From Camellia lanceoleosa (taxonomy: Eukaryota; Streptophyta; Magnoliopsida; Ericales; Theaceae), in contig CM045758.1 in the NCBI GenBank assembly GCA_025200525.1, forward strand, positions 60,576,649 through 60,640,648: a DNA stretch of 64,000 bases, written 5' to 3'. Positions 17,983 through 60,040 of the stretch are shown piece by piece. The position numbers and the translations under genes are program-made. The notes beneath the pieces were generated by a model that searched no databases, was not told the origin of the DNA, and saw nothing but the letters and a program-made list of their open reading frames with translations. The stretch's first letter is position 1. Each line of letters opens with the position of its first letter.

Positions 17983-18102
17983 GGTCGGCATACTTGGCCG
18001 GATGGCCAATAAAAGGTACGGCCGGCTGGATAGGTGGCTGGCCGGCCAAGACTTGTGGCTAGACAGCTGTCAACCACTCACACAACCTTATCTTCTATAA
18101 AG
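17983..18102 (+). promoter_or_regulatory. Candidate promoter of outer gene B: GGCCGGC cluster plus TATA box
   Basis: Repeated motifs TTGGCCGGATGGCC, TACGGCCGGCTGG and TGGCTGGCCGGCCAAG lie at 17983-18068. A clean TATA box (CTATAAAGG, 18095-18103) follows after about 28 bases, and the gene B frame begins about 110 bases later. The TATA context CTTATCTTCTATA matches the inner gene B copy (CTTATCTTCTATATGAG on its own strand). Promoter activity is inferred from this layout. Confidence 0.5.
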
Positions 18103-18214
18103 GTCTTCTCTTGTTTTTTCTTCGACAAAACCCTATCTTTTCTGCTAGCTTTCCCTGAAAATTGAGATTTTCCTTGTGGAGAAGCTCAACGATTGAACGG
18201 CCATTTTAGACGGC

Positions 18215-19438
18215 ATGAAAAAAATGAATTTCAGTGGTTTCGGCATAAACGCTCTTTTTACTTTGAGCCATACTTCGCTTTATTTTCCATTCCTCCATGC
18301 TGCTGCCCATTGTTGGGACCCAGTTACTCATGTGTTTCCCTTCAGATCACAAGAGATGTATCCCACTCTTGAGGAGTTTCAAGCATTAATGGAGTCTAGG
18401 CATAACGAAGAAATTATGCCTCAACCCCTTTTTGGCCATGCACGAGCTCTTGAATGAATGTGTGGCCTCTCTTTCAATGAGGCCAAGTCTTTGGCTCATG
18501 ATGGGGAGTTAAACATTCTTGGCTTGATTTGCCGTTTCTCCGACATCAGAAATAGGTGCAATCTTCTTTGGCAAGGTTATCGCCAACATGCTCTCTGCAT
18601 ATGCTTGCTTGCCTATTATCTTCTTGCCCTTAGTGGTAGTGGAGTTAGCATCCGACTAATTGAAGTGGCTCAACGCCTCAAGGAGGGCCAAAGCTGTATA
18701 AGCTTGGCACTGGCCGAAACCTTGGTGGGTTTGGATGCTTTCCACGGGCAAGAGACTTCTCAGTTTGAGGGAAGTCCACTACTTCCCCAGGTATCATTTC
18801 CCACCCTTTCTTATTTATGATTTCTCACATCACTGTGGCACTCACTATCTATTTTCTCTTAAAGCCCTTTTCTTACTTTTTCTCTCAACACACATCCTTA
18901 TATTTTTTAATCTCTCTTATTTTTTATCCTTTCCCAGGTGTGGTTGATGGATAAGCTGAAGGTCATGGACCCTTGCCCTGAGTATTCAGCCAGATCCTAC
19001 TTCTTTCGCGCGCAGCTAGTGAGCTTTTCCACAGAGGGATTGTGGTGTGACTGGATGTGCAGCAGATCCGCGACTGACATCGCTTGGCGATGCCCCTGGC
19101 TTAACTTATCTGAGATGAGCTATAGCATGTCCCGCCAGCTGGGGATACAATTGATTGGCCTTACACACTGTGTTTTCTACTTCCCATTCTGGTTCAAACG
19201 CCAGTTTGGACGTGATCAGACTCGTCTAGATGAGGTGGTGGAATATCCAGTTTCATTTCCAGTCTGTGCTTCGCACCTGGCTCGATACGTCGCCACTTGG
19301 AGGATGAGAGAGCTTTTGGCCCCTATTGCCAGCTTCATTTGTGCCCTTTCTGGTGAGTGCTTGGCTTGGCTTGAGGATGAGACACAGGTTAGGCCATCCT
19401 TGGCGGCAGAGAATTTTGCGAGTACAAGCAGGATGTAG
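18215..19438 (+). pseudogene. Outer gene B: PMD-like antisense gene, two exons, one internal stop
   Basis: Exon 1 (about 18215-18789) contains the PMD-like segment CWDPVTHVFPFRSQEM followed by YPTLEEFQALMES. Exon 2 (18938 or 18939-19438) begins with VWLMDKLKVMDPCP and holds the segment WRCPWLNLSEMSYSMSRQ. The intron begins GTATCA and ends TTTCCCAG. Exon 1 has a TGA at 18455-18457, where the inner copy has an Arg codon. Upstream of 18215 the homologous frame is also closed. It parallels inner gene B almost residue for residue, so it is a diverged sibling. It lies antisense to the outer retrotransposon. Confidence 0.65.
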
Positions 19439-20136
19439 AGGACCACTGCCTGACTTATCTGTGCCCCTAGTTTATTGCTTTGACTTTTCTTTTCAAGTTT
19501 TATGATGTAAAAGCAACTTTGATTTAACTTGAGAGTTAGAGGGTGTACTTGTGTTGAAATCATGTAATTAAAGTTGTGAGTACTGAAAATTTCCTTCTTG
19601 GTCCAAAGAATGGTTTGTGTTGCAAAAAGTACAATTTTAACAAAATCAACATCATTAAAATCTTCCAGAAACAAATTTCGTAAACGGTCATTACTTGACA
19701 CATATGGAATCAATCCTCAAGATGTACAGTCCTGAATTAAGAAGATCATAACTGCCCACAAATGTATTCACCTTTACTATTGTTCTGTCCCTTGCTTCAT
19801 CTTACAATTGGATTTTCTGTTAGATGGAGATAAAACAATCAAGCCGACAGATGGTGAGATGGACCAATCAAACAATGGATAGGACAATTGAGTTAAAAAT
19901 GATTATAGCCAAACTTCGAGATGAAGTTACCTACGTATCCCAAATATGGGAATCAGGCCTTACGTAGTTTGGTTAAGGTTCACTCGGGAATTAAAACTCT
20001 CATTTTGCGCTTTAACTTTTGCCAAAACTGCCTTTTGGGTTTCAACTTTGTGAGCTCTATTTTTCTTTATTTCTAATTTTTCATGCTCTAATTTTTGCCT
20101 AGGTCGTCATTTCGGGTTTTTGGCCTAGCGAGCCTC
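19439..20136. other. Outer element spacer between gene B and the end of integrase
   Basis: Non-coding on both strands. On the minus strand 20135-20060 reads GGCTCGCTAGGCC...GACGACCTAGGC, a block conserved after integrase in the inner element (36136-36180), followed by a second related copy. Confidence 0.6.
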
Positions 20137-21870: not shown

Positions 21871-21873
21871 ATC

Positions 21874-23621: not shown

Positions 23622-23815
23622 TGTAGACACCCCATTTTTGACCGTCCTCAAGACTTGGATATGCTTGCAGGAACATCCAGTGACAAGTTCGATTACTCGT
23701 CGAGTACTCAAATTTCACGACAGAACGTCACAGGTTTGAGCTTTCCAAACCCTGTATCCTTTCTGCTCCATTTTTGGACCATGTGTTGGTCCTTTCAGCA
23801 TGCTTATCATGCTGC

Positions 23816-23926
23816 ACTGCCGGCCACTTTTTGGCACTGCCGACCATGCATTTATCCCTACCGACCATTGATGAAGCCTGCCGGCCATCAATAAGGCACT
23901 GTCGGCCACCACTAATGGCCGGCAGA
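23816..23926 (+). promoter_or_regulatory. GGCCGGC motif cluster in U3 of inner 5' LTR, with hairpin
   Basis: Units such as CTGCCGGCCA, CTGTCGGCCA and TGGCCGGCAG are packed here about 110 bases before the TATA box. CTGTCGGCCA (23899-23908) and TGGCCGGCAG (23916-23925) form a 10-bp inverted repeat with a 7-base loop and a single mismatched (G-T) pair. The 3' LTR keeps the arrangement at 43766-43854. A role in transcription is inferred. Confidence 0.5.
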
Positions 23927-24037
23927 ACACCTTGTCTCAGCAGATTTTGTGCTAGATGTTTTGAGCCAGTTGGTTTTCACTATGGAGGGATGAAGCCCAT
24001 TTCAAGCTTGTTTAACAAGATTTGCATTGCATGCCTC

Positions 24038-24044
24038 TATATAA
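24038..24044 (+). promoter_or_regulatory. TATA box of inner 5' LTR
   Basis: CTCTATATAAGGGGAGGC is a strong plant TATA context. It is conserved in the 3' LTR (43986-43992). Transcription would start about 30 bases downstream, near 24075, giving the boundary between U3 and R. Confidence 0.65.
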
Positions 24045-24679
24045 GGGGAGGCTCCTTCCCCTTTACAGAGGTTCAACAACTTTAGAGACAATATATATAT
24101 ATATATATATCTCTATATTTCTCACACTCTCTCTCTATATTGTGTTAGTTTGTGCCTTAAAGTGTAATTTCTCTTCATTTTTGCACTACAACACCTAGTA
24201 AAGCACCATCACTTTGTTACTGAGATTCTTGAGAGGTTTGTTTGGACTCAAAAAGCTGGTTTTAGCGCAGACTCATGGTCCTTTTGCTGTTGTGCTTCAA
24301 GGGTGAGCCTATTCCCTTTTAAAGCTTGTTTTTATACATTGGTTTGGCCATCCTTGCATATTGTTTTAGGCCTTACTTTCAACTACAAAAAGCTTTGATT
24401 TTAAGTGTTTAAGATGGTTGTTTGAGGCCTCTTTGGTGTTGAGGGTGTTCTACCCTCTTGTGTGCCTTATTTGCATAGGCTTGGAGTCATCTCTTAAAAC
24501 CTTTGAGTTCATCTTGGTTTAGCCTTTTAGCCACTGAAATTTAGTGGATTTTCAGTGGTAGAAATGTGGTTTGAGGCCTCAAATGAGAGGGGGTGGTCCC
24601 CTCTCCTCTTGTCTTGTTTGTTTGTGTTATTGGCCTATCAAATGAGCATGTATTTCTATCCTCTTGAGGCTTAGTGTGA

Positions 24680-25780
24680 GCATGTTTTTGTGAGTTCTTA
24701 GGTCTAATATAACTCTGTTCATGGCTGGTTTGGTCACCTCATGTATGCTTTTTACACTTGTAGTGTAAATTTGCCATTTAGCCTTGTGTGTTCAATGCCA
24801 TGATCCATTATGCTAGCCTATTTTGGTTCTATCTCAGCATGTTTTTGGTGTTATTTGGCATGATACAACTCTTTTTTTGGTTGGTTAGAGCATCCCTCAT
24901 TTGCTTCTTACACTTGTAGTGTAAACCTTGCTCACTAGCCTAGTATACTTGGTGTTTTGACCCATTATTCTAGCATGTTTTGGCTCCACTCCAGCAAGTT
25001 TTCACTCATGTTTTAACATTCTTTAGCTCTAGTTTGAGGCTTCTTGGTCGTATGATGCTTGTTATGCATGCTTGTAGTGCAATAGCTTTGACTAGCTTTG
25101 AGTTTTGAGGTATCTTGCATGCTTGACTTGAGGTACTTGCATTTGTTGGCATCATTTGGAATGATATTTCAAAGCATATAGTATTGTTACACTTCCATGT
25201 TTTTCACTCTCTTTAAGTGCTCTTGAGAGTTGTACCTTTATGCCTTATTTGTAAGCCATTGCATGAGCCTCATTTTCTTGCCTTTCAAGCCATCATCTCA
25301 GTCCATTTTGGCTACTATTTTGGCCTGCATAAGGTCTATTTGGGGCTAGTTCATTTGAGCATTGTCTTGCATGCCTCTAGTGTAATGCACTTCACTAACT
25401 TTGACGCTTAAGCCTTGCAACATGCATTACCTGGGTTGTTTGTATGATTTTTAAGTCATTTAGCATGACATTTTAGTGCTGGAACATATTCCATTGTACT
25501 CCATGTTTCACTCTTTCAATGCCTTTGGAGAGTTGTGTCTTGTGCCTTAATATTGGACTAACATGTATGCATGTTTGTCTAGTCCTTTGAGTCTCCATTT
25601 CAGCATGTCTTGCCACTATTTTGGGTATGATGTAACTCTATTTTGAGCTGGTTTGGATGTTTGAGCATTGTGATGCATGCTTATAGTGTTATCCTCTTCA
25701 CTAGCCTTGGAGTTCTTGGCCTCTTAACATGTTGTGCATGAGTGTTTGCATGATAGAGTCTTGCATGCCATCTTAACATG
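24680..25780. repeat. Diverged internal repeats of about 157 bp in the inner LTR
   Basis: Two neighbouring units are clear: TGATATAACTCTGTTCATGG... (from about 24707) and TGATACAACTCTTTTTTTGG... (from about 24863). Both contain TTACACTTGTAGTGTAAA and a GCTAGCCT or CTAGCATG landmark. Weaker units with (T/C)T(A/G)TAGTG(C/T)AAT recur near 25069, 25368 and 25672. The same pattern is present in the 3' LTR. Confidence 0.5.
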
Positions 25781-26172
25781 TCAAGATTAGCATGAGAGTT
25801 TTGCATGTCATGTTGTTTGTGTGCATTGCATTGTGTTCAACCCGGTGTTGTGTTTGAACATAAGGTGGATTAGCTCATTTCATACTTGAAGTGATGAAAT
25901 GAGCCAATCTCCCTTGGTCTCCATTGCCTTTGATTTCTCATGATAAGGAGATGGTCTTGGTGTCTTGTTTGTCATGCGTTTATTGAATTTGTACATGTTG
26001 GATCTTTGGTCATCATGCATTGAGATGCGTGATTGATGCTCTTGGATCCAATGATCCCCCATCCATTGATGTTTTGAAGTGATATGGAGTGGCATAATGT
26101 GTACATACCCTTGGGAGACCCTCCCTTTTCTCTATTTTGTGCTCTGCTGCAGCTTGGTGTCACAGCACACTA

Positions 26173-26266
26173 GTGGCTGGCACCCTCTTATTGTTGGCCG
26201 GCAGTGTACACTCTTGGTCAGTAGGGAGGTCGGCAGTACCTCTTCATGGCCGGCAGGCCACTGGTG
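26173..26266 (+). promoter_or_regulatory. Second GGCCGGC motif cluster in inner 5' LTR
   Basis: GTGGCTGGCACC, TGTTGGCCGGCAG, GGTCGGCAGT and ATGGCCGGCAGG occur within about 95 bases. The 3' LTR repeats it at 46116-46232 with one more unit. Comparable second clusters occur in the solo LTR (55147-55162) and the outer LTR (58306-58368). Confidence 0.4.
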
Positions 26267-27755
26267 CACTCCTCAACACTATTTTGGTAAGATCCAGCAT
26301 CTAGTTCTCAAGGACACCCTGCAGACAGAGCCTCAAGAGACCAACCGGAAAGCTTTCAGGGACGGGAATCGAGCATGCATCTTCAACTTTTTCAAGGCAG
26401 AGCTAAGGCAGCCTAGTTCACATACTTTAACGCTTAGCGTGAATGTGTAATTTAATTAATTCATTTGTTAATTAGTTAAAGTTCTGTAATAATTAGCTTT
26501 GTAGTATCTAGTTATTCAATTTGGTTGTGTAATAATTAGTCTAATTAGATTATTAGATTAGTTACGTAGCTTAGCTTAGATTGGCTAGTTAGCTTATTAT
26601 TCGGACCCTCCGTCGAGAGAACAAATGTTGTAATAAGCGTGCGTGTGTGTGATGCATGTCTTCCAATCCCATTTCTTTCTCCCTTTTACTTACCTGCTTT
26701 CGATGGTTAGTTTTAGGGCATATTTCAGTTAGCATACCCTATGCTTACATGCGTGCATCATTCATTTGTCTTGCATGCGTCAGGCTCGGCGCATCATTCA
26801 AACTGATTGTATTCAATTCCAAATTGAATACATGTTATCAAGTTTCATTCACATGACATCTTAGAATAGCCGAGCCTATCTTAGTTGTATTTTTGCATGT
26901 GTTGCATTATGCATCCTGACATAGCTAGGATCATGCATTGATTACTAATTAGCTTTTGTTTTGGTTCGGAGTACTAGGTAAGCTTTTATGATTTAACATC
27001 CTTGCATGTGTGTAAGTGACTGCCATGATAGCATGCTTGCCATGAGACTAACTGCTTAAGTGCTTAAATGGATGAATGCCTACGGGTGAAGGTTTGATTG
27101 CCCGAATTGGAACAATTCATCAAAATGTGAGTTTTAAGCCCACTTGAAGTGGCAAAATCATGTTTTTCTAAGCCCACTTGAGGGTGGCAAATCCGTGTCT
27201 TACCTATTTACGAGTAGCACTTTCAAATCATTTTCAAAAACAAACATGAGTTGTTTTGTTCCAATCCGTGTGATTGAGTCTATACTTGTATGCTACGCGC
27301 ATCACATAGTAATTCTATATTAATAACCGGAAAAGAACACATGTGTTTTCAAAATAACATATCATTTTTAGTAGAGGCCGATCCTTTGATCGAGCGAGCG
27401 GGGGTGCTCATTTCATGATCTTCCCCCCTCGTACCCAAGTTCCCGAGCTGAGGCAACTTTGGTGATGACGGACACGTGGCCTTAGGCACGAGTTAGGATT
27501 TCCTAAATTTCCCAAAAACAAACATTTAGGTGGCGACTCTGAAATCTAGCAAAGCAGTCCATGTTTGGCGCTTTTCGAATCAAAATTTATTTTTCAAAAC
27601 CAATTGTCGGATTTGGACTCTTTGGTGATTTATCAGTCTTACATTGCACTTTGTGAGATTAGATTCAGAACCATGACAGGAGTCCGAACTGTAATAGCTA
27701 GAACTACAATTCGCGTCCTTGCGCGCAGAGCAGAGTTTGGGCGGTCTACAGTTTC

Positions 27756-28730: not shown

Positions 28731-30551
28731 ATGGAGGACATGATGCGTTAGCTCCAAGAGACTATGCAAGCCATGCAGCGGGATGCTACCCACCAGCCAA
28801 AGTTTGCCGCGCGTCAAGCAGAGGTTGTAGCTCAACAGACAGAGCTGATTGCCAGACTTCAGCAACAGCAGCAACCGCAACAAGCCGGAGCATCTGCTTC
28901 TCATCCACCCCCATCCCCACCTAGAGTTCCAGCACTCGGGGATACTGCAAATGTCTAGGAAGATATGGATGTTCCAACAGGGCCAGTCCCGCCACCAGTT
29001 CTACCGCAAATTTCAAAGACACTGGCCTTTTCAACAGATACACCGTTTGAATCTAAGATGGACCCAACCACTCTGAAGGTCAGTAAGCTTGAAAAGCTAT
29101 TCAAGAGGGCTCAAGGCATTAATTCCATACCAGACATAGAGGATGGATACACCAATTCGGCGGTGACTTTGTCGGACCTGTTCAAGATGCCGCATATAGA
29201 CCATTTTAACGGTTCTGGAGATCCCATGGTACATTTGCGGTTGTTCTCGAATATCCTACGGCCAATGGGCCTTTCTAGATTGCAAAAGTTTTCACTCTTC
29301 AACTGGACCCTGTTGGGTATCGTGACCATCTGGTACGTTAAACTGGAAGATTCTGTCAAAAGAAGTTGGGAGGAGATGGCCAAGGCCTTCGTCGCCCAGT
29401 ATTCATACAATACCCAGATCGATGTCACAACCCGTGATCTTGAGACGACCAGGCAAGAGCCAAAAGAGGGCTTCTTTGACTTTGTAACCAGTTGGAGAGC
29501 CAAAGCTTCTATGATGACCACTAGGCCGGTCGAGAAGGATCAGATACGGATGGTTATGCGCAACCTCTAACCCAAACTGATGCAAAAGATGATCGTCTTA
29601 CCCCTCCCTACCTTTGCGGATTTACACAAGATTGGGGTACAGATTGAGGACGCCATGAAGCAGGGTCTGATTGACCACGAGAGAGAGTAGCCCAAGAGAG
29701 CATTCACCCGCAGTTCGAATGCAGGCACGAGTAATGCTGCAGCTGCCAGAACTTCCGACGTGGGCATGGTCACCACAGCCACATCAACAACAGCCACACC
29801 TTTTACCGGTACGTCTAGTGCCACACTTCAAACAGCAAAATACCCACCCCGGGGCCAGAGGACTTTTACCCCGTTGTATTTGCCTTTGTTCAAGGCCCTG
29901 GGGGTTTTAATCAGAAAAAAGCATCTGAAACCCCTCAAGCCTCGCCCACTGCCAAGTAATCTCCCACCAACCCATAACCCAGCCAAATATTGTGCCTTTT
30001 ACCAACAGCATGGTCACGATACCGACCAGTGCTTCAGACTGCGTCATGAGATCCAGGATCTTATTGACAACAAGGTGATTGGGCCTCTAGAGAAGCCGAA
30101 TGTCACCACCAACCCACTCCCACCACATAACCAAGCTCCACCACCCAAACACATCAACCTAATCCAAACCGCGGCCATTCCATATGACCCAAGCATATAC
30201 ATCACACCATCCCCCCTACCCAAGCCTGAGGTGTTCATCCCGGACAGCACGGACTTGTGCATGTTGAGCACCTCCCTAACCCAACCTGAACTGGTGGTGG
30301 TGACCGTTGAACACAAAATTGGGATGACTTTGGAGGCAGATGGGAATGTTGATTCAGAGCCTGAGGGGTCTGCGAGCTTTGCATACAACCCGAGTGGTTA
30401 TATCACATCAACGGATCAGTTTAAGCCGAGCGTAGAGTTGCCAGTTGGGGCAGAGATTAGTGTGGTTCAGGAGGATGGACCTAGTCGAGGATTGGATGAT
30501 TTGGTAGAGTTGGAGGAAGATATGGCGAATCTACAGTTCTTTGACGAATAG
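28731..30551 (+). pseudogene. gag: Inner gag
   Basis: It starts at the ATG giving MEDMMR. Next come a Gln-rich stretch (LQQQQQPQQ), then KVSKLEKLFKRAQG and HIDHFNGSGDPMVHLRLF. The gag core (WYVKLEDSVKRSWEEMAKAF ... TRQEPKEGFFDFVTSWRAKA) follows, then a Pro/Thr-rich linker and the zinc-knuckle-like YCAFYQQHGHDTDQCF (Cys/His, about 29990-30037). The frame is kept throughout, but stops are at 28749 (TAG), 28956 (TAG), 29568 (TAA) and 29688 (TAG). The last codon, TAG at 30549, is shared with the outer element and may be the natural gag end or an ancestral lesion. Gag forms the virus-like particle. Confidence 0.8.
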
Positions 30552-33954: not shown

Positions 33955-34389
33955 GCCGGGGAAATAGTTGATTCTGTACCTAGCAGTGACTGAAACTACA
34001 ATGGGCTGCATGCTTGCACAGGAGTCTGAGGACAAAGTAGAGAAGGCTATTTACTACCTGAGCAAGAAAATGTTGGATTACGAGACCCGCTACACTCCGC
34101 TGGAGAAGGCTTGTCTAGCCTTGGTATGGGCTACCAGGAAGCTGAGGCACTACCTGTTAGCTCACTCTGTAATACTGGTTTCGAGATTAGATCCCATCAA
34201 ATATCTCTTCGAGAAACCGGCACTTATGAGTAGGCTAGCCCGTTGGTTGCTTTTGTTTTCCGAATTCGATCTGAAATACATGACGTGCAAGTCAATGAAA
34301 GAGAGAGCGGTAGCGGAGTTCCTAGCCGATTACCCAGTTGAAGGGAATGAAGCAGTTGAGTATCTGTTCCCATACGAGGCCATTCTGCA
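33955..34389 (+). pseudogene. pol: Inner RNase H (RT-linked)
   Basis: After the shift, frame 2 carries SLLEPGK*LILYLAVTETT (TAG at about 33967), then AIYYLSKKMLDYETRYTPLE and ACLALVWATRKLRHYL. FDLKYMTCKSMKERAVAEFL follows. This is the standard gypsy RNase H that removes the RNA strand. It is open from 33968 onward. Confidence 0.8.
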
Positions 34390-34875
34390 TGTCGAAGAAG
34401 AGACTTGGATGATGTACTTTGACGAAGCGTCAAACCAATATGCGTATGGGATAGCAATGTTGCTGATAGCACCCAACAATTCCCGCATACCCTTAGCATT
34501 CAAACTCCGGTTCAAAGTGTCGAACAATGAGGCAGAGTATGAGGCATGTATTGCTAGACTAGAAGTCGCCCTGGAACTAGGGGCAAAATGGTTGGATGTC
34601 ATCGGGGACTCGAACCTTGTTGTTTCTCAAGCTAAAGGAGATTGGAAAGTTAAAGAAGAAAAGATGAGAATCTACCACCAGACCTTGGACATTTTGATTC
34701 CTCGGTTTGAGAAACTGAATTTCGCTCATCTGTTAAGAGAGAACAACAGGTTCGCTGATTCATTAGCAACTATATCTTCTATGATAAACATCCTTTTCGG
34801 AGTCCAGATGCGTCCAATCATCATTGAACAGAAATTCGTGCCGGCCTACGAGCTGATTGCTGCCATAGATGAGGT
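34390..34875 (+). pseudogene. pol: Inner archaeal-type RNase H (second RNase H)
   Basis: It lies in the same open frame as the preceding RNase H. All four acidic catalytic positions can be placed: YFDEAS, NNEAEYEA, GDSNLVVS and RFADSLA. A second RNase H of this kind marks the Tat lineage. It is the best preserved catalytic domain of the inner element. The frame is broken just after it, near 34877, by a one-base loss in an A-run (GTACAAATGAG). Confidence 0.8.
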
Positions 34876-36135
34876 ACAAATGAGAATCCCTGGTATTACG
34901 ACATCTGGAACTTCTTGGAAAATGAGGCGTATCCACCAGGGGCAAATGCCAAAGACAAGAGGGCAATTCAAAGAATGGCTGCTCAGTTTATCATCTGTGG
35001 GGGTAAACTGTACAAGCGGGGTCATCTCGAGATGCACAAGCTGTGTGTTGCTGCTGAAGAGTCCAAGCGCCTGACAGAGGCCATCCATGGAGAAGAGTGT
35101 GGAACGCACACGAATGGGGTGATGCTAGCCTGGAAGATCCTTAGACAGGGTTATTATTGGTCAACCATGGAGGAGGATTGTATTGGCCTTGTCCGGCGAT
35201 GCCACAAATGTCAGATCCATGCAAACCGCATGAACATTCCGCCGTCGAAGCTGTACAACATGACTTTGCCATGGCCATTTTCAATCTGGAGGATTGATGT
35301 AATTAGGGCTGTCACTCCGAAAGGGTCCAACGGGCATGAGTACATTCTGGTAGCGATAGACTACTTCACGAAGTGGGTTAAGGCCCAATCCTACGCGGTG
35401 TTGAAGGCTTCGCATGTTGCAAAGTTCATCAGAAACAACATCATCTATTGCTACAGGGTCCCAAATAAGATTATTTCAAATAATGATTCCCACTTCAAGA
35501 AGGAGGTGATCGACTTGTTAGAGAAATACAACGTGGGTTTTCATAAGTCATCTACATATCGGTCGCAAACCAACGGAGCAGTTGAGGCTGCCAACAAGAA
35601 CATCAAGCATATTCTGTAAAAGATAGTGGAAACCTACAGGGACTGGCCAGATAAACTGCCATTTGCTCTTTGGGGCTACCGGACTTCAATTCGAACTTCT
35701 ACTGGGGCAACTCCGTATTCCTTGGTCTATGGGACGGAGGCTGTTCTACCTATCAAAGTTGAGGTTCCGTCATTACGGGTATTGGCTGAGTGTCAGATAA
35801 CCGAGGCAGATTGGCAGCAAAGTAGGTTCGAAGAACTCATGGTCTTTGATGAAAGAAGACTGAAAGCACTGTATCACGTCCAGGGTTATCAACGAAGAAT
35901 TGCCAGGGCTTTCAACAAGAAGGTTAAGTCCAGGAATTTGAAGGAAGGGGATCTAGTGCTCAAAGACAACCGAGCTCCCATCCACGACCCTAGGGGCAAG
36001 TTCAGGCCCAATTGGACTGGCCCTTACATCATCAAGTCTATTTGGTTGGGCGGAGCTGTCGTTCTGATGAACCTAGATGGCCTAGAGTTCTCCCAGCCAA
36101 TCAACATGGACAAGTTGAAGAAATACTATCCCTGA
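34876..36135 (+). pseudogene. pol: Inner integrase
   Basis: After the frameshift the protein resumes with NENPWYYDIWNFLENE. The HHCC part follows (IHGEECGTHTNGV ... RRCHKCQIHANRM), then the core: WRIDVIRAV (first Asp), IISNNDSHFKKE where the second catalytic Asp is Asn (codon 35479-35481), and GAVEAANKN (Glu kept). A TAA at 35617-35619 replaces a Gln codon. The C-terminal part ends MDKLKKYYP with TGA at 36133-36135. No chromodomain is seen. The enzyme would be inactive. Confidence 0.85.
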
Positions 36136-38078: not shown

Positions 38079-38116
38079 AAAACTGAGTTAAAATGAGGAA
38101 ATCCCAAAGTTGGAAC

Positions 38117-38275
38117 TCATATAGAAGATAAGGCAGTGAGTGGAGGACCGATGTCGACGTTTCGGAGAGTCTGCCATCAATGGCCGGCACCTGCTTATTG
38201 ATGGCCGGCAATGGCTCATCAGTGGCCGGCAATGGCACACTGATGGCTGGTAGGCCATCCTCCATGGCCGACAGC
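38117..38275 (-). promoter_or_regulatory. Candidate promoter of inner gene B: GGCCGGC cluster plus TATA-like box
   Basis: On the minus strand the cluster reads repeated TGCCGGCCA(C/T)(C/T) units (38275-38171), then CTTCTATATGAG (TATA-like, 38123-38117), about 40 bases before the gene B start. The stretch TGCCGGCCATCAATAAG is identical to one in the inner 5' LTR U3 (23879-23895), in the same orientation relative to transcription. Confidence 0.5.
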
Positions 38276-42200: not shown

Positions 42201-42314
42201 GTGTATATGAAGACCCACGGCCAAAAAGACCAAATTGCCTGAATCTGCCATCGATGGCCAGCAGTGGCCACTGATGGCCAGCAGGGGACTGGCAGCTTCC
42301 ACTGATGGCCGGTA
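42201..42314 (-). promoter_or_regulatory. Candidate promoter of inner gene A: GGCCGGC-like cluster plus TATA-like box
   Basis: On the minus strand ACCGGCCATCAGTGG, TGCTGGCCATCAGTGG and TGCTGGCCATCGATGG lie at 42314-42246. CATATACAC (42209-42201) follows at a TATA-like distance. The gene A start is about 350 bases further on. The wording GGCCATCAGTGG also occurs around gene B and in the LTR. Confidence 0.4.
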
Positions 42315-42978: not shown

Positions 42979-43007
42979 ATACAACTTTTCAGTGCTTGCA
43001 TTGCTTG

Positions 43008-43195: not shown

Positions 43196-43553
43196 ATGTT
43201 GTGTTTGAGACTTCGGGTATTCTCGATAGTCGCTTTTTAGCCTTCTCCATGTGAGACTTTGTGAGAATTGTTTAATTTTCTTACATCCTTTCTGTTGAAA
43301 TGTGTGAGACTTCTGCAACTTGTCGATTTGCTTAAATTGTTGTATTTATTTGCATAAATGCTTCATTACAGCTTTCTTTACATAATCATAAGTTATGGTC
43401 TGCATCGTGCATATCATTTGCATTTTGCCACAGCCTAAGGGCGCATCTCTGTATGATTATATTGAATGTTTGCCTGAGTCTTCGGTCTTGTCAAAAATGG
43501 GTCAATTCTGGGCTTTAACATTCACTCCCGTTACTTTGTGACTTTCGAGTTCT
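43196..43553. other. Spacer before the PPT of the inner element
   Basis: Non-coding 3' part of the element. CTTTTTAG, GCATCGTGCATATCATTTGC and similar phrases occur. No gene or repeat is supported. Confidence 0.45.
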
Positions 43554-43569: not shown

Positions 43570-46500
43570 TGTAGACATCCTATTTTTGACCGTTCTCAAG
43601 ACTTGGATATACTTGTAGGTACATCCAATGACAAGTTCGATTGCTCGTCGAGTACTCGAATTTCATAGCGGAATGTCACAGGTTTGAGCTTTTCAAACCC
43701 TGTATCCTTTCTGCCCCATTTTTGGACCATGTGTTGGTCCTTTCAGCATGTTTATCATGGTGCACTGTCGGCCATGCATTTATCCCTGCTGACCATTGAT
43801 GAACCCTGCCGGCCATCAATGAGGCACTGCCGGCCACCACTGATGGCTGGCAGAACACCTTGTCTCAGCAAATTTTGTGCTAGATATTTTGAGCCAGCTG
43901 GTTTTCACTAAGCCCTCCTTCATACATGTATGGAGTGATGAAGCCCATTTCAAGCTTGTTTAACAAGCTTTGCATTGCATGCCTCTATATAAGGGAAGGC
44001 CCCTTCCCCTTTACAAAGGTTCAGCAACTTTAGAGACAATATATATATATATATATCTCTATATTTCTCACACTCTCTCTCTATATTGTGTTAGTTTGTG
44101 CCTTAAAGTGTAATTTCTCTTCATTTTTGCACTACAACACCTAGTAAAGCACCTTCACTTTGTTGTTGAGATTCTTGAGAGGTTTGTTTGGACTCAAAAA
44201 GCTAGTTTTAGCCCAGACTCGTGGTCCTTTTGCTGCTGTGCTTCAAGGGTGAGCATATTCCCTTTTAAAGCTTGTTTTTATACATTGGTTTGGCCATCCT
44301 TGGATATTGTTTTAGGCCTTGCTTTCAACTACAAAAAGCTCTGATTTTAAGTGTTTAAGATGGTTGTTTGAGGCCTCTTTGGTGTTGAGGGTGTTCTACC
44401 CTCTTGTGTGCCTTATTTGCTTAGGCTTGGAGTCATCTCTTAAAGCCTTTGAGTTCATCTTGGTTTAGCCTTTTAGCCACTGAAATCCAGTGGATTTTTA
44501 TTGGTAGAAATGTGGTTTTGAAGCCTCAAATGAGAGGGGGTGATCCCATCTCCTCTTGTCTTGTTTGTTTGTGTTTATTGGCCTATCAAATGTGCATGTA
44601 TTTCTATCCTCTTGAGGCTTAGTGTGAGCATGTTTTTGTGAGTTTTTAGGTCTGATATAACTCTGTTCATGGCTGGTTTGGTCACCTCATGTATGCTTTT
44701 TACACTTGTAATGTAAATTTGTCATTTAGCCTTGTGTGTTCAATGCCATGATCCATTATGCTAGCCTATTTTGGTTCTATCTCAGCATGTTTTTGGTGTT
44801 ATTTGGCAAGATACAACTCTTTTTTTGGTTGGTTAGAGCATCCCTCATTTGCTTCTTACACTTGTAGTGTAAACCTTGCTCACTAGCCTAGTATACTTGG
44901 TGTTTTGACCCATTATTCTAGCATGTTTTGGCTCCACTCCAGCAAGTTTTCACTCATGTTTTAACATGCCTTAGCTCTAGTTTGAGGCTTCTTGGTCGTA
45001 TGATGCTTGTTATGCATGCTTGTAGTGCAATAGCTTTGACTAGCTTTGAGTTTTGAGGTATCTTGCATGCTTGACTTGAGGTACTTGCATTTGTTGGCAT
45101 CATTTGGAATGATATTTCAAAGCATATAGTGTTGTTACACTTCCATGTTTTTCACTCTTTAAGTGCTCTTGAGAGTTGTACCTTTATGCCTTATTTGTGA
45201 GCCATTGCATGAGCCTCATTTTCTTGCCTTTCAAGCCATCATCTCAGTCCAATTTGGCTACTGTTTTGGCCTGCATAAGGTATGTTTGGGGCTGGATTGG
45301 CCATTTGAGCATTGTCTTGCATCCCTCTAGTGTAATACACTTCACTAGCTTTGACACTTAAGCCTTGCAACATGCATTACATGGGTTGTTTGCATGATTT
45401 TTAAGTCATTTAGCATGACATTTCAGTGCTGGAACATATTCCACTGTACTCCATGTTTCACTCTTTCAATGCCTTTGGAGAGTTGTGTCTTGTGCCTTAA
45501 TATTGGACTAACATGTATGTATGCTTGTCTAGTCCTTTGAGTCTCCATTTCAATATGTTTTGCCACTATTTTGGGTATGATGTAACTCTATTTTGAGCTG
45601 GTTTGGATGTTTGAGCATTGTGATGCATGCTTATAGTGTTATCCTCTTCCCTAGCATTGGTGTTCTTGGCCCCTTAACATGTTGTGCATGAGTGTTTGCA
45701 TGATAGAGTCTTGCATGCCATCTGAACATGTCAAGATTAGCATAACAGTTTTGCATGTCATGTTGTTTGTGTGCATTGCATTGTGTTCAACCCGGTGTTG
45801 TGTTTGAACACAAGGTGGATTAGCTCATTTCATACTTGAAGTGAGCCAATCTCCCTTGGTCTCCATTGCCTTTGATTTCTCACAATAAGGAGATGGTCTT
45901 GGTGTCTTGTTTGTCATGCATTTATTGAATTTGCACATATTGGATCTTTGGCCGTCATGCATCGAGATGCGTGATTAATGGTCTTGGATCCAATGATCCC
46001 CCCCCCCTCAATTGATGTTTTGAAGTGATATAGAGTGGCATAGTGCATACATACCCTTGGGAGACCCTTCATTTTCTCTATTTTGTGCTTTGCTGCAGCT
46101 TGGTGTCACAGCACACCGGTGGCCGGCACCCTCTTATTGTTGACCGGCAGTTCTTCATTTGTGGCCGGCAGTATACACTCTTGGTCGGCAGAGGGGTCGG
46201 CAGTAGTTCTTCATGGTCGGTAGGCCACTGGTGCACTCCTCAGCACTATTTTGGTAAGATCCAGCAGCTAGTTCTCAAGGACACCTTGCAGACAGAGCCT
46301 CAAGAGACCAACCGGAGAGCTTTCCGGGACGGGAATCGAGCATGCATCTGCAACTTCTTCAAGGCTAAGCTGAGGCAGCCTAGTTCACATACTTTAATGT
46401 TTAGCATGAATGTGTAATTTAATTAATTCATTTGTTAATTAGCTAAAGTTCTGTAATAATTAGCTTAGTATTTGCTAGTTATTCAATTTGGTTGTGTAAT

Positions 46501-47706
46501 AATTAGTCTAATTAGATTATTAGATTAGTTAAGTAGCTTAGCTTAGATTAGCTAGTTAGCTTATTATTCGGACCCTCCGTCGAGAGGGCAAATGTTGTAA
46601 TAAGCGTGCATGTGTGTGATGCATGTCTTCCAACCCCATTTCTTTCTCCCTTTTACTTACCTACTTTTGATGGTTAGTTTTAGGGCATATTTCAGTTAGC
46701 ATACCCTATGCTTGCATGCGTGCATCATTAATTTGTCTTGCATGCATCGGGCTCGGCGCATCATTCAAACTGCGTTGTATTTTAATTCCAAATTGAATAC
46801 ATGTTATCAAGTTGCATTCACGTTACATCTTAGAATAGCCAAGCCTATCTTAATTGCATTTTTGCATGTGTTGCATTAGGCATCTTGACATAGCTAGGAT
46901 CATGCATTGATTACTAACTAGCTTTTATTTTGGCTCGGAGTACTAGGTAAGCTTTTATGCTTTAGCATCCTTGCATGTGTGTAAGTGACTGCCATGATAG
47001 CATGCTTGCCATGAGGCTAACTTCTTAAGTGCTTAAATGCATGAATGCCTGTGGGTGGAGGTTTGATTGCCTAAATTGGAACAATTCATCAAAATGTGAG
47101 TTTTAAGCCCATTTGAAGTGGCAAAATCATGTTTTTCTAAGCCCACTTGAGGGTGGCAAATCCGCGTCTTAGCCTACTTGCAAGTAGCACTTTCAAACCA
47201 TTTTCAAAAACAAACATGAGTTGTTTTGTTCCAATCCGTGTGATTGAGTCTATACTTGTATGTTGTGCACATCACATAGTAATTCTGGATTAATAATCGG
47301 AAAAAGAACGCATGTGTTTTCAAAATAACATATCATTTTTAGTAGAGGCCGATCCTTTGATCGGGCGAGCAAGGGTGCTCATTTCATGACCTTTCCCCCT
47401 CATACCCAAGTTCCCAAGCCGAGGCAACTTTAGTGCTGATGGACACATGGCCTGAGGCACGAATCAGGGTTTTCTAAATTTCCCAAAAACAAAATATTTA
47501 GTTGGCAAAACAGTCTATGTTTGGCGCTTTTCGATTCAAAATTGATTTTTCAAAACCAATTGCCGGATTTGGACTCTTTGGTGATTTATTAGTCTTACAT
47601 TGCACTTTGTGAGATTAAATTCAGAACCGTGACAGGAGTCCAAACTGTAGTAGCTAGAATTACAATTCGCACCCTCGCGCGCGGAGCAGAGTTCAAGCGG
47701 TCTACA
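43570..47706 (+). repeat. Inner element 3' LTR (4137 bp)
   Basis: Aligns along its whole length with 23622-27750. It keeps the GGCCGGC clusters (43766-43854 and 46116-46232), the TATA box (43986-43992) and the AT microsatellite (about 44038-44054). Differences include loss of about 20 bases of one GGCCGGC unit near 43775, an added CCCTCCTTCATACATGTA near 43912-43932, a C-run at 46001-46008, and a small deletion near 47500 (where the 5' LTR reads GTGGCGACTCTGAAATC). It ends CGGTCTACA at 47706. Confidence 0.9.
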
Positions 47707-53366: not shown

Positions 53367-53545
53367 TGTAGACACCCTCATTTGTTACCGCCCCTAAGAG
53401 TTAGGCGACTCAAGTCGATCACTCGATGATGAAAAGATATGCTGTACAACCACTCAAGTTCTTCAACAAAAGGCTTTTGTTTTTTAGTTTCTAATTCCAA
53501 CCTTACACCCCATTTTGACCAAAATTATTTTAGACCTTATAAGCA

Positions 53546-53747
53546 CTTGGCTGGCCAGCCGGCCAGATGTCCCGAGAGGTAGATTTTTACAGCCAAGTGT
53601 CCCCACTAATGGCCAGCCAGCTAGAAGAAGTGGATGGTTGGCCCCTTAGTGGCCAGCCGGCCAATTGTGCCAGTAGAACAGATATTTTGCTGCCAACTAT
53701 GCCAACTATCACCATAGGTGTATGCACTGCACCAGCTATCTATATAC
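53546..53747 (+). promoter_or_regulatory. Candidate promoter of solo LTR: GGCCGGC cluster plus TATA box
   Basis: CTGGCCAGCCGGCCAG, ATGGCCAGCCAGC and GTGGCCAGCCGGCCA occur at 53546-53668. TCTATATACAAA (TATA at 53741-53747) follows after about 73 bases. Confidence 0.5.
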
Positions 53748-56148
53748 AAATATTTCTGAATGAGGCACCTATGTTTCTATGTATAGATGACCACTCCTCT
53801 TGAAATTAGGTTAGAAAAAATCCCAAAAGCTCCAATACTTGCATAGCACTCTCTCTCTCTCTCTCTCTACACTTCCTAAACAAAAAATTTAGCTCTTCTT
53901 GTTGAAGTTTTGAGCTCAACTCTTAGCCCTTAAGAGTGAGATCTTGTTAGTTTGTGAACAAAGGAGTTACCTCTCTTCAAGAGGTATAACTTCTAGCATC
54001 TCTACACTACTTCTTCTTTCTTTTTTCTTGCTATTTTTATACTATTTTTGGACTATTTTTATAGGCTGAAACTTGTGGCTTAAAGCTATCAAAGGTAGAG
54101 GGATTAATCACCCTTCTTTGAACCTTGTTCTCTAAGCTTTTGCCCTTATGTTTCCCATTTCTTTCTCAACTTTTTTCCAGCTTTTTACCACTGGTTTTTA
54201 GAGTTTTCAGAGACTAAAAATGTGGTTTTGAAGTCTCAAAAGTTAAGGGGTTAGCCACCCCTTCTTAAGCTTGTTTACTAGCCTCATTTCTCCATTAATT
54301 TAGCTTGATTTTCTAGCATTTTCAACTCAATTCCAGCACTGTTTTAGCTATTTTTAGGGTTGTTTTTAGGTTGTTTATTTGATTTATACTTTGTATAGCA
54401 TGCCTGCAGCATAGTTGTTCTCATAGGTTTGGTGGTTTAAGTCTTAGCCACCAACCTATTTGAGTTTATAGCATTTATTTTATGCTTTTCATATTTTTGT
54501 TCACCTTTAATCACCTCTGCAACCTCTCTCCTTTCTTGGCTTTTTATTTCTCTGAGAGTTGTTTCAACCGAGTGTTGTTTAAGATTGAGAAAGAGACCCT
54601 TCAATGCTAAATGGTTTAATCTCTTCGGAGGTTCATTACCATGGCATTACTTCTCTCTCATGCCCAAAACAACTTCTTGTTTGACACTTCTCTCTATTTA
54701 GTGGACTTAATGCTCATTTTTGGACTAAAATAACTAATTAATGGCAAGGTAATTAAAAGAGGCAACAAAACTTAGACTAAAATAGAACGCGATAATAAAA
54801 TTAAGTTTGGGGTTCAATCAGACGTTAATTGAACCCATTGCGTCTAGAGTCATTTCATACTTTTAATGATGAAAATAGTTCAAGATTCAATGTCAACCAC
54901 CTCCGTTGATCAATTCCGTGATAGAGATGAGGTTTGTGGGTCTTTCATTGTCATTTATTAAGCTTTTGTCCTTTGATTCATAAACCATCACACAATGAGT
55001 TTGTGTCGATTGGTGGTTTGTGAATCATGCGTACCCCTTCTTTGATCTATTTAATGATAAAGAGAGGCAGAGTGGACAAACATCTCCTGAAAATACTCTA
55101 TTTCTGCTCTATTCATTTTCTGTTACAGCGGGGAGAACCCAAAACTAGTGGCCAGCCGGCCACCTCTTTCCAACCAGACAGTGTCATTTTTCTTGCAAAA
55201 TAGAGCAGAGGCTGAGGCAACAACAGTTCACTATTCTAACTGCACAACAGAACCATTTTGGCAGCAGAACAGAGGCATTTTCGGGTAGAAATCCGCAATC
55301 ATGCATGAGTCATTTCTCAATTCTCAGGGCCCATTTAATAGTATTTGTTGTACCTAAAGTAGTGGACTTGTATTATAACTAATTAGTTAGTTTAATTTTA
55401 ATTTGTATTAATTAGTTAGAATAGCTAGTTAATTTTGTGTTGTACTTACTTAATTAGCTGGAGTAGTTAATTAATTTGTGGCGTTGTAATAATTAGCTAG
55501 TATAGTTAATTCATTTTGATTGTGTAATAGTTAGTTAATTTAGCTTAATTAGCTAGGACATTTATTTGGACCCTCCAATGCGAGGGCAAAAATGTGATAA
55601 TGTGTATATCTTCCAACCCCCATTTCTTTCTCTCTTTTATTTACTTATGATGGATAGAACTGAGCATTATGTTTTAATTAGCATTTTCCATGTACAAAGT
55701 ATCGATTTGTCTTGCACGCATAAGTTTCGGTTCATCATTCTAATGGCTTTGTCATTTATTACTTCCTTAAATATGTGCGTCATTGCATGCTATCAAAGTG
55801 ATTTACATGACATATCAGACAACTGAACCTATTAGTTACATTTTTGCATATTTTGCATTAGTCATTTTGCATCATTAGGGTCACGCATTTTTCCTAATTA
55901 TTTTATTCCTTTTGGCTTGCCTTGGAGAACTAGGTGAGCATTTTTTGCTTTAGTATATAGCATGCGTGTAATTGTTGCCATGTTAAGCATAATTACCATA
56001 AAGCTAAGTGCTTAAATGATATTTCTATTGAATGTCTGTGGATGAAGGCTAATTGCTCAAATTGGGATAATTTGATGAATGTACATATAAGATCACTTTT
56101 TCAAGTGGTACATATGCAAAACACCTTTCAAACAAACATAAAATCAAA

Positions 56149-57395
56149 GGTGCCGTTTGGTAACACTTACGTTTTCAGTTTTCTGTTTATATTTACAAAA
56201 AATTTTAAAACCTAAATAAAAACTTGTTTGGTAAAATTTTTGATTTATAAATTAGTGGTCTCAGTTTATAAATTTTGCCAAAAAATGAAAACATAAAAAA
56301 TGTGTTTTTATTTTGAGTTTTCAGTTTTTTTTTTTTTTTTTTTACCACCCAATACTAGCCACCACCCACTACCATTTTCCACCACCGTCTTCCACCACCA
56401 CCACCTACCTCCCACTACCACCCGCCACCACCACTCACCACCCACCTGCTACCACTACCCACCACCCACCACCCACCACAACCCACCTGCTCACCCCTCG
56501 CCACCACCACCACCACCGCCACCACCACCACCACCCACCCGCCACCACCCACCACCCGCCACTACCATCCACCACCCGCCACCTATTTGCCACCACCACT
56601 CACCACCCACCACCCATCTGCCACCACAATCCACCACCTGCCACCACCCACCACCACCACCACCATCACCCACCACCCACCCGCCACTCACCTGCCACCA
56701 CCACCTACCACCACCACCACCCACTTGCTACCACCTACCACCCACCACCGTCACCCACCCACCCACTACCACCACCATCACCCGCCACCTACCCGCAACC
56801 ACCCACCACTACCCGCCATCCGCCACCCACCTGCCACCACCACCCGCCACCACTGCCACCACCCACTCGCTACCACCCGCTACCGTCACCCACTCATCCA
56901 CCATCACCACCCACCTACCACCACTTGCCATCCGCCACCCACCTGCTACCACTACCCCCCCACCACCACCACCCGCCACCGTCACCTACCCACCCACAAC
57001 AACCACCCGCCACCACCACCCACCTGTCACCAGCCACCACCACCCGCTATCCGCCACCCACCTGCCACCACCACCTGCCTGCCGCCACCACCACCACCAC
57101 CACCACTCACTCGCTACCACTCACCACCTGCCACCGTCACTCACCCACCCACCACCATCACTACCCACCCGCCACTACCAGCTACCCACCGTCACCACTT
57201 TTCACCACCGTCTTCCGCCGCCACTTGTCACCACTTGTCATTTCTCACTCTTTTTTATATTTTTAAATTTTTTTTAAACATTTTGTCAATTACCAAACGC
57301 ATTTGTAGTTTATGTTTTTCTAAAAATAAACAAAAACCAGTTTATAAATTTTTTGTAAATATAAACTGAAAACGTAAACGTTACCAAACATATTG
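56149..57395. mobile_element. Long-TIR (foldback/MITE-like) element inside the solo LTR
   Basis: GTTTGGTAACACTTACGTTTTCAG followed by TTTATATTTACAAAAAATTT at the left (from 56155) is repeated in inverted form at the right end (57340-57389), giving a terminal inverted repeat of about 45-50 bases. The outermost bases (GGTGCCG versus ATATTG) do not match well, so the exact ends and target duplication are uncertain. The TIR start resembles hAT-type MITEs. The interior is almost wholly a CCACCACCC-rich minisatellite. Confidence 0.6.
56343..57240. repeat. CCACCACCC-type minisatellite (about 900 bp)
   Basis: Degenerate 3-, 12- and 15-bp units such as CCACCACCCGCCAC and CACCCACCTGCCAC run the length of this region with strong strand asymmetry: C on plus, G on minus. 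The repeats keep all three plus-strand frames open for up to about 325 codons of His, Pro and Thr, which is a by-product of composition and not evidence of a gene. Confidence 0.85.
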
Positions 57396-59980
57396 AAAAT
57401 GTTCTAACTTTTGCAAATTAGTCTATACTTGTATGCATCACATAGTAAAGATAGTCTAACAATCAGAACAAGAGCATATAAGCTACATAAGATTTACATC
57501 ATAATTAGTAAAGGCCGATCTTTGATCAGACGAGTAGGGTGCTCAATTCATGACCTTCAACTCTCGTATCTAAGTTCCCGAGCCGATACACTTTGGTGAT
57601 GACGGATAAGTGACCTTTGGCATGAGTCACAAGTTTCCTAAATTTTTAAAAAACATTTAGGTAGCGACTCTGTAATCTAGTAAAACAGTCCATTTTTGAC
57701 ATTTTGATTCAAAATCGATTTTCCAAAAGAATTGCCGGATTTGGACTCATTTGTGTTTATCTATTTCACATTATACTTGTGAAATCAAATTCAGAATCAT
57801 AGGAGTCCGAACTATAGCGCTATCATATCCGAAAGGAGCATGAAAAGCAAGCTATAATAATGAGCCGAATTTTAATGTATGCAAAAATGGATACAAAGCA
57901 TGGCAATGATATGAAACGAAAACATGACACTATATGCAACCACGATAAGCATATAAATAAAAATGAGAAAGAAATAACAGTTGGAAGACATACAAATATT
58001 ACAAGTTGGCTCTCATACAAAAGGGTCCGAATGATTATCCTAATTAACTAATTATTACAAACACAAATGAATAAACTAATTAATTAACTATTACAAATTC
58101 GAATGAAGTAACTAATTAATTGCAAATCTAATCTAATGGAGTTGAACGGAATGCGAGGAAACGCATATGCATGACTAAGAACATCCTCTGTAAACCTCTC
58201 TGTTTGCTGCCACAATCTGCTCTATTTACAGTCAGAAATTTGTTTTGTTTTGGCCTCAGGATTTGTTCTGTTCTACCGCAAAATTACCACTGTCGTACAA
58301 AATGGGTGGCCGGCCGGCCTGCCTGATCAATTGGTCGGCCGTGCAGAGTAATGGTTGGCCAGCCACTGTTTCTGGGGAATACGCTGCTGAAATAGAGCAA
58401 GACAGAGTGTTTCTAGGAGATGTTTATCCTTTCTTCCCTTCCCTATCATGAAGATGATCAAGGGAGGAGTAGATTCGATTCTCAAATCATCAATCATCAC
58501 AAATTTGTTGCGTGATGATCTTAGAAACGATAGGACAAGAGTTAATAAATGCAACAAAAGACAAACAATACATCCTTCCTATCATGGAGTTACCTCAAGA
58601 AAGGGGGTAGACTCACCTCATGAATCATCGAACATCACTAAAATAGTATGTGATTATCTAGAAGCAATAGATTTAGTATAACGTCTGACTGAACCTAACC
58701 AAATTTCATTACATTTTTACCGCTTTTTTACCCCAATTTTATTAGCCTTTTTACTTTACCTTTTCCATTTTCTTTATCTTTTCTTCTTTTTTGTCCAAAG
58801 GTGATCATTATGTCCACTAAGTCCAAAACAATAAAGATTAGCAAGCATGACTTGACTCGAGAAATGAGCTCTTCGAGCCCTTTTCTATGGGAGAAATTAC
58901 AAAGGAAGAATCAAACCTATTTACAAGCGATAATGACTAGTCAAACCCAAAAAGAGCTATAATGACTCTGAATTCAAACCCAATAATGAACTATAATGAA
59001 TCTTTCCTTTACGATATCCAAGGGTCTAAATAAAAAATTTGTCCCTTAGAAGTGATGCACCGCTGATAAAGGGAAGTATCAAACAAGAGACTGTGCTTAG
59101 CATAAAAAAGACGTGATGCCCTAATAATGAACTCCGAAGAGATTAAATCGATTAGCATATGGAACCCCTTTCTTATGCCATGAATGAAAATCTTTTGGGT
59201 GATATAACTCTTAATCAAAGAATCAAAGAATCAAAGAAAGGATGGAGGTTGTAGAGTGCAAATGAAAAGTAGATGATTACAACAACATGAATATACATGA
59301 AAGCTAAAAAAAAAAAAATTAAAAAAAAAAAGAGAAGAAGAAGAAAGAAAAAGACCATTAACTCAAATGGATTGGAAGCTATGGCCTATACACTAAATCC
59401 ATGAGGCTTTACAACAACACAACTATAATATTCAAAGCATAAATTAAATAAACACATTAAACAACCCCTAAACTCCAAAAAACAGTGGCCAAAATCAAAA
59501 GAAACAAAGTAGAAAAGGTAAAACAACAAGCTATAGAACAAGGCCTAAGGAAGGGTGGCTAACCTCTCCTTCTTTTGTGACTTTAAATCACATATTTCAA
59601 GCCCCAAAACACTCCGAAAACAGCAAGTAAATACATGGAAAAGAGATAGAGAAAAGATGGTGAAAAAGTTCAAAATTCACTTCTTGAAAGAGAGGATGAG
59701 CTTCGTAGTTCACAAACCACAAAGGCACTCTCCAAGAGCTGAAATTGTATTCGAGAATCTTAGCAAAAGCTTTAAGTTCAAGCTTAGAAGTTGTATGTAT
59801 TGTGTATGTATATTGCAAGAGGGTAGAGAAGATGGTTGGTCAAGCTTTGGGCTATTGGGGAATTTTTCTAACCCCGAACCATAAGGACGGTCTTGTAGAA
59901 AAGCAGGTTCTCACGTTGGAAATATCAGCAAAGAGACAATTGGTGCAAAGCATGCACATAGGGACAGTTGGCTGTTGTAA

Positions 59981-60040
59981 AATATATACCTGTGCTAAAC
60001 ATGGCCGACCGGCCGGCCATGAGGATGTACGGCCGACCTT
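59981..60040 (-). promoter_or_regulatory. Candidate promoter of outer 5' LTR: GGCCGGC cluster plus TATA-like box
   Basis: On the minus strand GGTCGGCCGTACATCC and ATGGCCGGCCGGTCGGCCAT (60040-60001) are followed within about 13 bases by GGTATATATT. Confidence 0.45.

Follow-up and report, generated by a model that had tools for sequence, protein, structure and literature searches.

In a 64,000-nucleotide stretch of the Camellia lanceoleosa genome (GCA_025200525.1, contig CM045758.1), nested retrotransposons carry one kind of short palindromic array ahead of the sense promoter in the long terminal repeat (LTR) and ahead of the promoters of two antisense genes, A and B. These retrotransposons are Ty3/gypsy elements of the Tat type, and the antisense genes are predicted to encode plant mobile domain (PMD) superfamily proteins. 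Sequence comparison gives good support to such a shared cis module at both kinds of promoter: independent copies repeat the layout, as do gene promoters chosen by location or gene homology and blind to the motif, and the arrays match one another within an element. We infer that the shared module controls transcription. All coordinates refer to the whole 64-kb stretch (the window), and L-numbers (L001-L064) designate stretches fetched from the 3.0-Gb genome.

Arrays and TATA-like boxes in the window

The preliminary description had placed seven GGCCGGC-type clusters, each followed by a TATA-like box, in front of LTR and antisense gene promoters, and reading the sequence confirmed all seven. The arrays, identified by sequence reading and motif count, and their boxes are listed below.

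23816..23926, plus strand: U3 motif array, inner 5' LTR
24038..24043, plus strand: TATA-like box TATATA, sense LTR promoter, inner 5' LTR
43766..43854, plus strand: U3 motif array, inner 3' LTR
43986..43991, plus strand: TATA-like box TATATA, inner 3' LTR
53546..53668, plus strand: U3 motif array, solo LTR
53741..53746, plus strand: TATA-like box TATATA, solo LTR
60001..60040, minus strand: U3 motif array, outer LTR
59983..59988, minus strand: TATA-like box TATATA, outer LTR
38171..38275, minus strand: motif array, inner gene B promoter
38118..38123, minus strand: TATA-like box TATATG, inner gene B (position recognisable in further copies)
17983..18068, plus strand: motif array, outer gene B promoter
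18096..18101, plus strand: TATAAA box, outer gene B
42246..42314, minus strand: motif array, inner gene A promoter
42202..42209, minus strand: TATA-like box CATATACA, inner gene A

Allowing 1 mismatch at most, the window has 71 matches to GCCGGCCA, whereas 20 Markov shuffles gave 12-28. Groups of at least 3 matches numbered 11 (0-1 in the 20 shuffles) and groups of at least 5 numbered 5 (0 in the shuffles), with overlapping palindrome matches scored more than once in these group counts. Counted by separate sites, there were 10 true multi-site arrays, seven on the promoter side and three in the middle of an LTR. A chance origin of the window arrays is excluded. Because it was too blunt a tool, recovering just 3 arrays in 13-60.4 kb, a stricter core test (GCCGGC with at most 1 mismatch, at least 5 in 130 bp) was abandoned.

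A strict TATAWA box was found 10-135 bp past five of the seven promoter-side clusters and was missed at inner genes A and B, which have weaker boxes. The base rate of TATAWA was 11% in random spans and 4% inside the inner internal region. Better counterparts of the two weak boxes were TATAAA at outer gene B and L060, and TTTAAATATA at the alignable place of gene A in L039 and L054.

A second array or its remnant, overlooked by the preliminary description, lies mid-LTR in every LTR family of the window and has no TATA box. The arrays (at 26174-26253, 46120-46182, and 58307-58358, with slightly wider bounds in the list) were assigned by motif count.

26174..26260, minus strand: mid-LTR array, inner 5' LTR, no TATA
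46120..46190, minus strand: mid-LTR array, inner 3' LTR, no TATA
58307..58365, minus strand: mid-LTR array, outer LTR
55149..55162, plus strand: remnant mid-LTR motif with one site, solo LTR

A further single-site remnant was found at 14404. TATAWA lay within 10-135 bp of none of the five non-promoter groups in the window (the three mid-LTR arrays and the remnants at 55149 and 14404). Mid-LTR arrays were also present at the corresponding place in L034, L037, L039, L040, and L056. In the window, the mid-LTR was the one extra kind of place at which the motif was as frequent elsewhere in the element. Since TATA-less arrays lie inside the LTRs of some subfamilies, the module is not solely promoter-proximal.

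As a universal motif, GGCCGGC was rejected; of the 8 gene B promoters found through homology, a single one had a strict GCCGGCCA cluster. Old and new cores have a common form in the palindrome TGGYCGRCCA, which describes the motif better; its units measure about 21 bp, and its form varies among elements. Groups of at least 4 loose matches to this palindrome numbered 6 in the window (four in U3, one at gene B, and one in mid-LTR), against 0 in 40 shuffles; at this threshold the arrays at outer gene B and at inner gene A go undetected, as do two of those in mid-LTR.

Promoters and array places outside the window

Among the stretches fetched by position, gene A was recognised in L039, L042, L049, and L054, and an array was present in all four. 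Gene B had arrays in L049 and L055; its arrays in L032 are built on a variant core and do not pass the strict criterion. When the start of gene B served as a homology query, 5867 first-look candidates came up, 40 of which were scored, and the promoters of the best 8 of 39 were read, the window's own being set aside. Each of these 8 promoters has 2-4 unit matches (GGTCGACC, GGTCGGCC, or ATCGGCCA) ahead of the gene B TATA position, with a spacing of mostly 17-21, 41, or 61 bp; L062 has two units only, 85 bp apart. Allowing at most 2 mismatches, TGGYCGRCCA gave 26 matches in the 8 promoters, each of which has 2-4 loose matches, whereas 200 shuffles averaged 1.6 and never exceeded 8; at most 1 mismatch gave 14 matches against a shuffle mean of 0.135. 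This test was not blind, as the palindrome was composed after viewing the same 8 promoters. Of 11 gene B promoters from elsewhere in the genome, 3 had strict GCCGGCCA clusters (L049, L055, and L058), and L032, L057, and L059-L064 had none. The earlier proposal of one module at sense LTR and antisense promoters thus held for the cis layout, repeated as it is by independent copies and by motif-blind promoters. It needs three corrections: the module also occurs in the TATA-less mid-LTR of some subfamilies, the palindrome is variable and has GGCCGGC as just one of its forms, and transcriptional control is a prediction.

Genome-wide, the pair GGCCGGC-N9-GCCGGC had 108 + 111 strand matches, against 17 + 14 for the reversed pattern, with many places counted on both strands. 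The first 27 distinct places of the list were used, unselected (L001-L004 and L006-L028, L005 being a duplicate of L004). By visual assignment, using alignments with the window and with one another, 21 of these were at defined sites, comprising ten in U3, eight in mid-LTR, and three in gene A promoters. TATA[AT][AG] was present 69-173 bp beyond the array in nine of the ten U3 cases, and L009 had only TATAAC. One repeat outside the assigned lineage (L003:1499-1544) has a GCCGGC pair and then TATAAAA about 23 bp on.

For a recount, neighbouring stretches were chosen by element position and the 27 picked places were masked. The elements of L030, L031, L041, and L042 were read on the plus strand. 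The 244,601 bases contained 19 clusters, against 0-5 in 12 shuffles, and 13 clusters of at least 3 sites, against 0-2; a chance origin is excluded here too. Seventeen of the 19 unpicked clusters were on defined sites, namely six in U3, five in mid-LTR, four in gene A promoters, and two in gene B promoters, again by visual assignment. The remaining two were one probable U3 and one at the start of a gene A. One of the six U3 clusters belongs to the second LTR of a pair whose other LTR had been picked, and several unpicked clusters come from elements with another site already picked.

Array similarity within elements and candidate explanations

For the similarity test, 37 hand-chosen clusters were trimmed to 120 bp and compared across the different sites of each element. 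The partner from the same element stood at a mean percentile of 0.815 (11 elements), against 0.50 +/- 0.08 under label shuffling, and 0 of 2000 permutations reached this value. Windows of 120 bp taken 150 or 250 bp to either side gave percentiles of 0.42-0.59, none of them significant. L039i, L007/L042, and L029/L040 were each treated as one element by position alone, and the assignment of L006 to the L049 element is unsure. As examples, the inner element has TGCCGGCCATCAATAAG in both U3 and gene B, with related units in gene A and mid-LTR; L032 has CGGCACTATTT common to U3 and gene B; and L049 has a 38-bp run, with 4 differences, common to the gene A and gene B arrays. An initial test on 26 clusters cut by hand (0 of 5000) drew 13 of its 24 pairs from a single element and was therefore replaced; once this dominant element was left out, the 11 remaining pairs averaged 17.7, against 15.4 between elements.

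We tentatively favour the explanation that the arrays are platforms for one sequence-specific protein, probably the element's own antisense PMD/DUF7745 product. That product is preferred because target divergence that follows the element is the expectation for a self-encoded factor, and because the VANC proteins of VANDAL elements, as far as the available text describes them, show the same pattern (PMC5735166). Two VANC-like features were found here. The motif is variable among elements and matches within an element (9 of 11 elements above 0.75), and the arrays lie in noncoding parts (17 of 19). The exceptions are one unpicked cluster where a gene A begins and, among the 27 picked places, two within a gene A exon. 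Arrays at TATA-less places are also expected of an anti-silencing platform, and not of a simple upstream element.

In the proposed mechanism, a protein, probably dimeric, would read a palindrome near TGGYCGRCCA whose units are about two helical turns apart. An element carries up to four kinds of array, at the sense LTR promoter, in mid-LTR, and at the gene A and gene B promoters, and the binding protein would most likely be made by the element itself from the antisense PMD/DUF7745 gene. By raising or un-silencing the LTR promoter as well as its own genes, this protein would set up a positive feedback, and joint change of protein and arrays would drive element lineages apart. The complete self-made circuit, in which an antisense PMD protein binds phased, co-diverging arrays and each lineage wakes only its own copies, is possible and is proposed with more hesitation. 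The sequence itself shows the arrays with their sites, enrichment, spacing, and within-element similarity; that a protein binds them, which protein this would be, and whether it raises or lowers expression are predictions.

The spacing of sites has a period of 10.3 bp (bootstrap 9.9-10.5; 55 clusters and 180 sites, picked ones included), a strength that 0 of 1000 jittered sets reached; pairs at 14-16 bp were omitted outside the window, where the search pattern itself fixes 15. Such spacing fits sites along one face of the helix. Units of 20-21 bp in tandem, with mostly even-turn spacing, would also result if functionless arrays had spread within elements through duplication, template switching, or gene conversion, as GC-rich palindromes slip and copy easily, and the long runs common to the arrays of one element agree with this. 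We consider such neutral spread unlikely, as it leaves unexplained that the same sites are kept in three window subfamilies though their U3 and promoter stretches have no mutual blastn match, that the flanking windows show no within-element match, and that arrays are rare off-site (1 or 2 of 19 in 245 kb).

Alternatively, the arrays may be enhancers for a host transcription factor, through which sense and antisense transcripts would be made under the same conditions. This is possible, if doubtful. An array followed by a nearby TATA box is an ordinary promoter layout, and the core is common to different subfamilies. RCCGAC-like forms of it presumably resemble DREB/ERF-type sites. However, a host factor alone would not explain why arrays are more alike within an element than at the same site elsewhere, nor the divergent gene B cores GGCCGGCC and GGTCGACC, nor the TATA-less mid-LTR arrays.

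Finally, the arrays could be targets of host silencing, at which a host protein or CpG methylation nucleates and represses both strands, a reading that we regard as improbable. The palindromes are CpG-centred; however, the observed/expected CpG ratio of the arrays is not above that of the whole inner element (0.50 vs 0.56), and a repressor site kept at all promoters would bring the element no advantage. Host repression of PMD genes does exist: in the available text on tea, 175 PHAS loci fall on PMD genes, and these genes are expressed to a very limited extent (PMC10673657); such genes are therefore somewhat transcribed and host-targeted.

Several results weigh against a self-encoded protein acting through one shared module. 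The within-element match fails in 2 of the 11 elements (outer, 0.55; L039n, 0.10). Masking the cores lowered the percentile to 0.63, a value reached by 53 of 1000 permutations, so much of the similarity signal lies in and beside the cores. The best jittered set came near the observed periodicity (0.265 vs 0.267). Even-turn spacings made up 56 of 187 pairs and odd turns 27 of 187, barely over the flat expectation of 11%, and duplication of the 21-bp unit could yield most of the pattern. Seven LTR copies (L030, L043, L044, L046, L047, L050, and the second LTR of L056) had no cluster where a mid-LTR array was expected; as the mid-LTR array is present in some copies and missing in these, it is restricted to some subfamilies. 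Gene B fragments lacking the 5' part (L052 and L053) had no cluster, and seven of the 8 homology-picked gene B promoters had no strict cluster. Among the 27 picked places, two lie within a gene A exon and four were unassigned (L003, L022, L023, and L024). AlphaFold models of the antisense proteins were too poor to speak for or against a DNA-binding fold, with a mean predicted local distance difference test score of 50.5 for gene A (P0010 with 23 relatives) and 36.9 for gene B (P0119 with 18).

An array common to LTR and antisense promoters was not described in the open-access literature searched, outside which most subscription papers lie. Linked control of the sense and antisense genes of one retroelement is known from Tax/HBZ of human T-cell leukemia virus; here, the antisense promoters are within the element and not in the 3' LTR. 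The antisense genes are already known in kind, whereas the shared LTR/antisense array appears new, and its regulator is a proposal.

The closest systems are compared here from the available portions of the cited papers. VANDAL elements are Mutator-like DNA transposons of Arabidopsis (Hosaka 2017, PMC5735166). Like the present elements, they have an accessory gene, short noncoding tandem motifs that differ among relatives, and a proposed co-evolution of motif and protein; the VANDAL motif is YAGTATTAY, in contrast to the palindrome here (PMC5735166). The present element is an LTR retrotransposon with antisense PMD-type genes, for which binding and hypomethylation would be proposals only. Grande gene23 and other plant antisense open reading frames (ORFs) likewise include an antisense gene between pol and the 3' LTR; gene23 is transcribed from its own promoter and its protein is nuclear, whereas a cis array in common with the LTR is not described in the available text (PMC7264820). 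Retand elements with TRP28 also have antisense genes with a supposed DNA-binding or regulatory role, and tandem repeats ahead of the 3' LTR. They differ by their shorter LTRs, 315-1,194 bp long where those described here reach about 4 kb, and by their TRP28 domain, PF04195 (PMC11963269); the Pfam matches here include PMD and no PF04195. MAIN/MAIL1 and the Gypsy-borne PMD-A belong to the same protein superfamily as the present antisense genes. Host PMD members are tied to transposon silencing and to a promoter motif, 'DOWN' (CATGCAGTTT for MORC1), that differs from the array motif here; direct DNA binding by PMD is unproven in both systems (PMC5418596, PMC7156037, PMC9899485).

The available texts leave open what role antisense genes play in plant LTR retrotransposons and what role PMD plays in Gypsy elements (PMC7264820, PMC11963269, PMC5418596). 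An element-specific DNA target at LTR and antisense promoters makes this role directly testable. If correct, the proposal would provide a retrotransposon counterpart of the VANC system and, to our knowledge, the first function for Gypsy-borne PMD genes.

Antisense genes and nested elements

The antisense genes of the window are as follows.

40797..41330, minus strand: antisense gene A, PMD exon, inner element (PF10536, E-value 4.4e-09, 36.4 bits against a cut-off of 34.9)
37290..38087, minus strand: N-terminal part of antisense gene B (DUF7745/PMD superfamily), inner element (weak, E-value 0.016, below cut-off)
18206..19680, plus strand: outer gene B, antisense to the outer element (69% identity to inner 38024-36551)

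Gene A passed the Pfam gathering score for PF10536, and the gene B pieces of the window were below the cut-offs, including DUF7745 at 18911-19435 of outer gene B (E-value 9.3e-4). Some gene B homologues, named aminotransferase-like plant mobile domain, carry PF24924, and two of them carry PF10536. By these domain matches, both genes are assigned to the PMD superfamily. PF04195 (TRP28) was absent from the 20 ORF pieces scanned, which cover the broken genes partially, and no PDB sequence matched the gene A piece at an E-value of at most 1. The two genes had 114 + 64 protein relatives, whose named sources were all Camellia except one Jatropha. In the available text of PMC5418596, the function of PMD is called undetermined, and anti-silencing is speculated for PMD captured by Mutator-like elements. 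The antisense genes appear to keep introns that splicing of the sense transcript would not remove. By eye, outer gene B has an intron-like GT...AG gap at 18789-18938.

Three nested elements of a single lineage fill most of 13-60 kb. The inner element, on the plus strand, has gag, a pol piece, and then antisense genes A and B ahead of its 3' LTR.

23622..27750, plus strand: inner element 5' LTR, aligned part (92.1% identity to 43570-47706; start TGTAGACACCCC; true end at about 28.0 kb, unfixed)
43570..47706, plus strand: inner element 3' LTR, aligned part (by alignment with the 5' LTR)
28959..29567, plus strand: gag fragment, inner element (Retrotrans_gag, E-value 5.6e-06)
33968..35071, plus strand: pol fragment with two RNase H domains, inner element (RT_RNaseH, E-value 3.2e-24; RVT_3, E-value 3.7e-18)

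The dual RNase H on the pol fragment (RT_RNaseH plus RVT_3) is a feature reported for Tat in the available text of PMC9289625. The outer element is on the minus strand and was split through the insertion of the inner one. Its LTR pair has about 86% identity in the aligned parts, and U3 is gone from the outer 3' LTR. This U3-less LTR is at 15864-17560; its homology ends at 15864 and directly adjoins sequence that, by eye, resembles PMD gene A exons. We infer that the solo LTR, of a third subfamily, is located within the outer 5' LTR. The 22-base LTR start TGTAGACACCCCATTTTTGACC had 37,413 genome matches (18,608 + 18,805), against 0 for the reversed control, which puts the family at tens of thousands of LTR copies, although related families may share this start.

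Immediately ahead of the inner 3' LTR, a tandem repeat with a 38-bp unit occupies 43006-43199. The solo LTR contains a low-complexity CCACCACC-type run at 56392-57198, and the 325-aa ORF at the same place is probably an artefact of this run. A satellite array with a unit of 162 bp and about 19 copies was found at 3102-6278.

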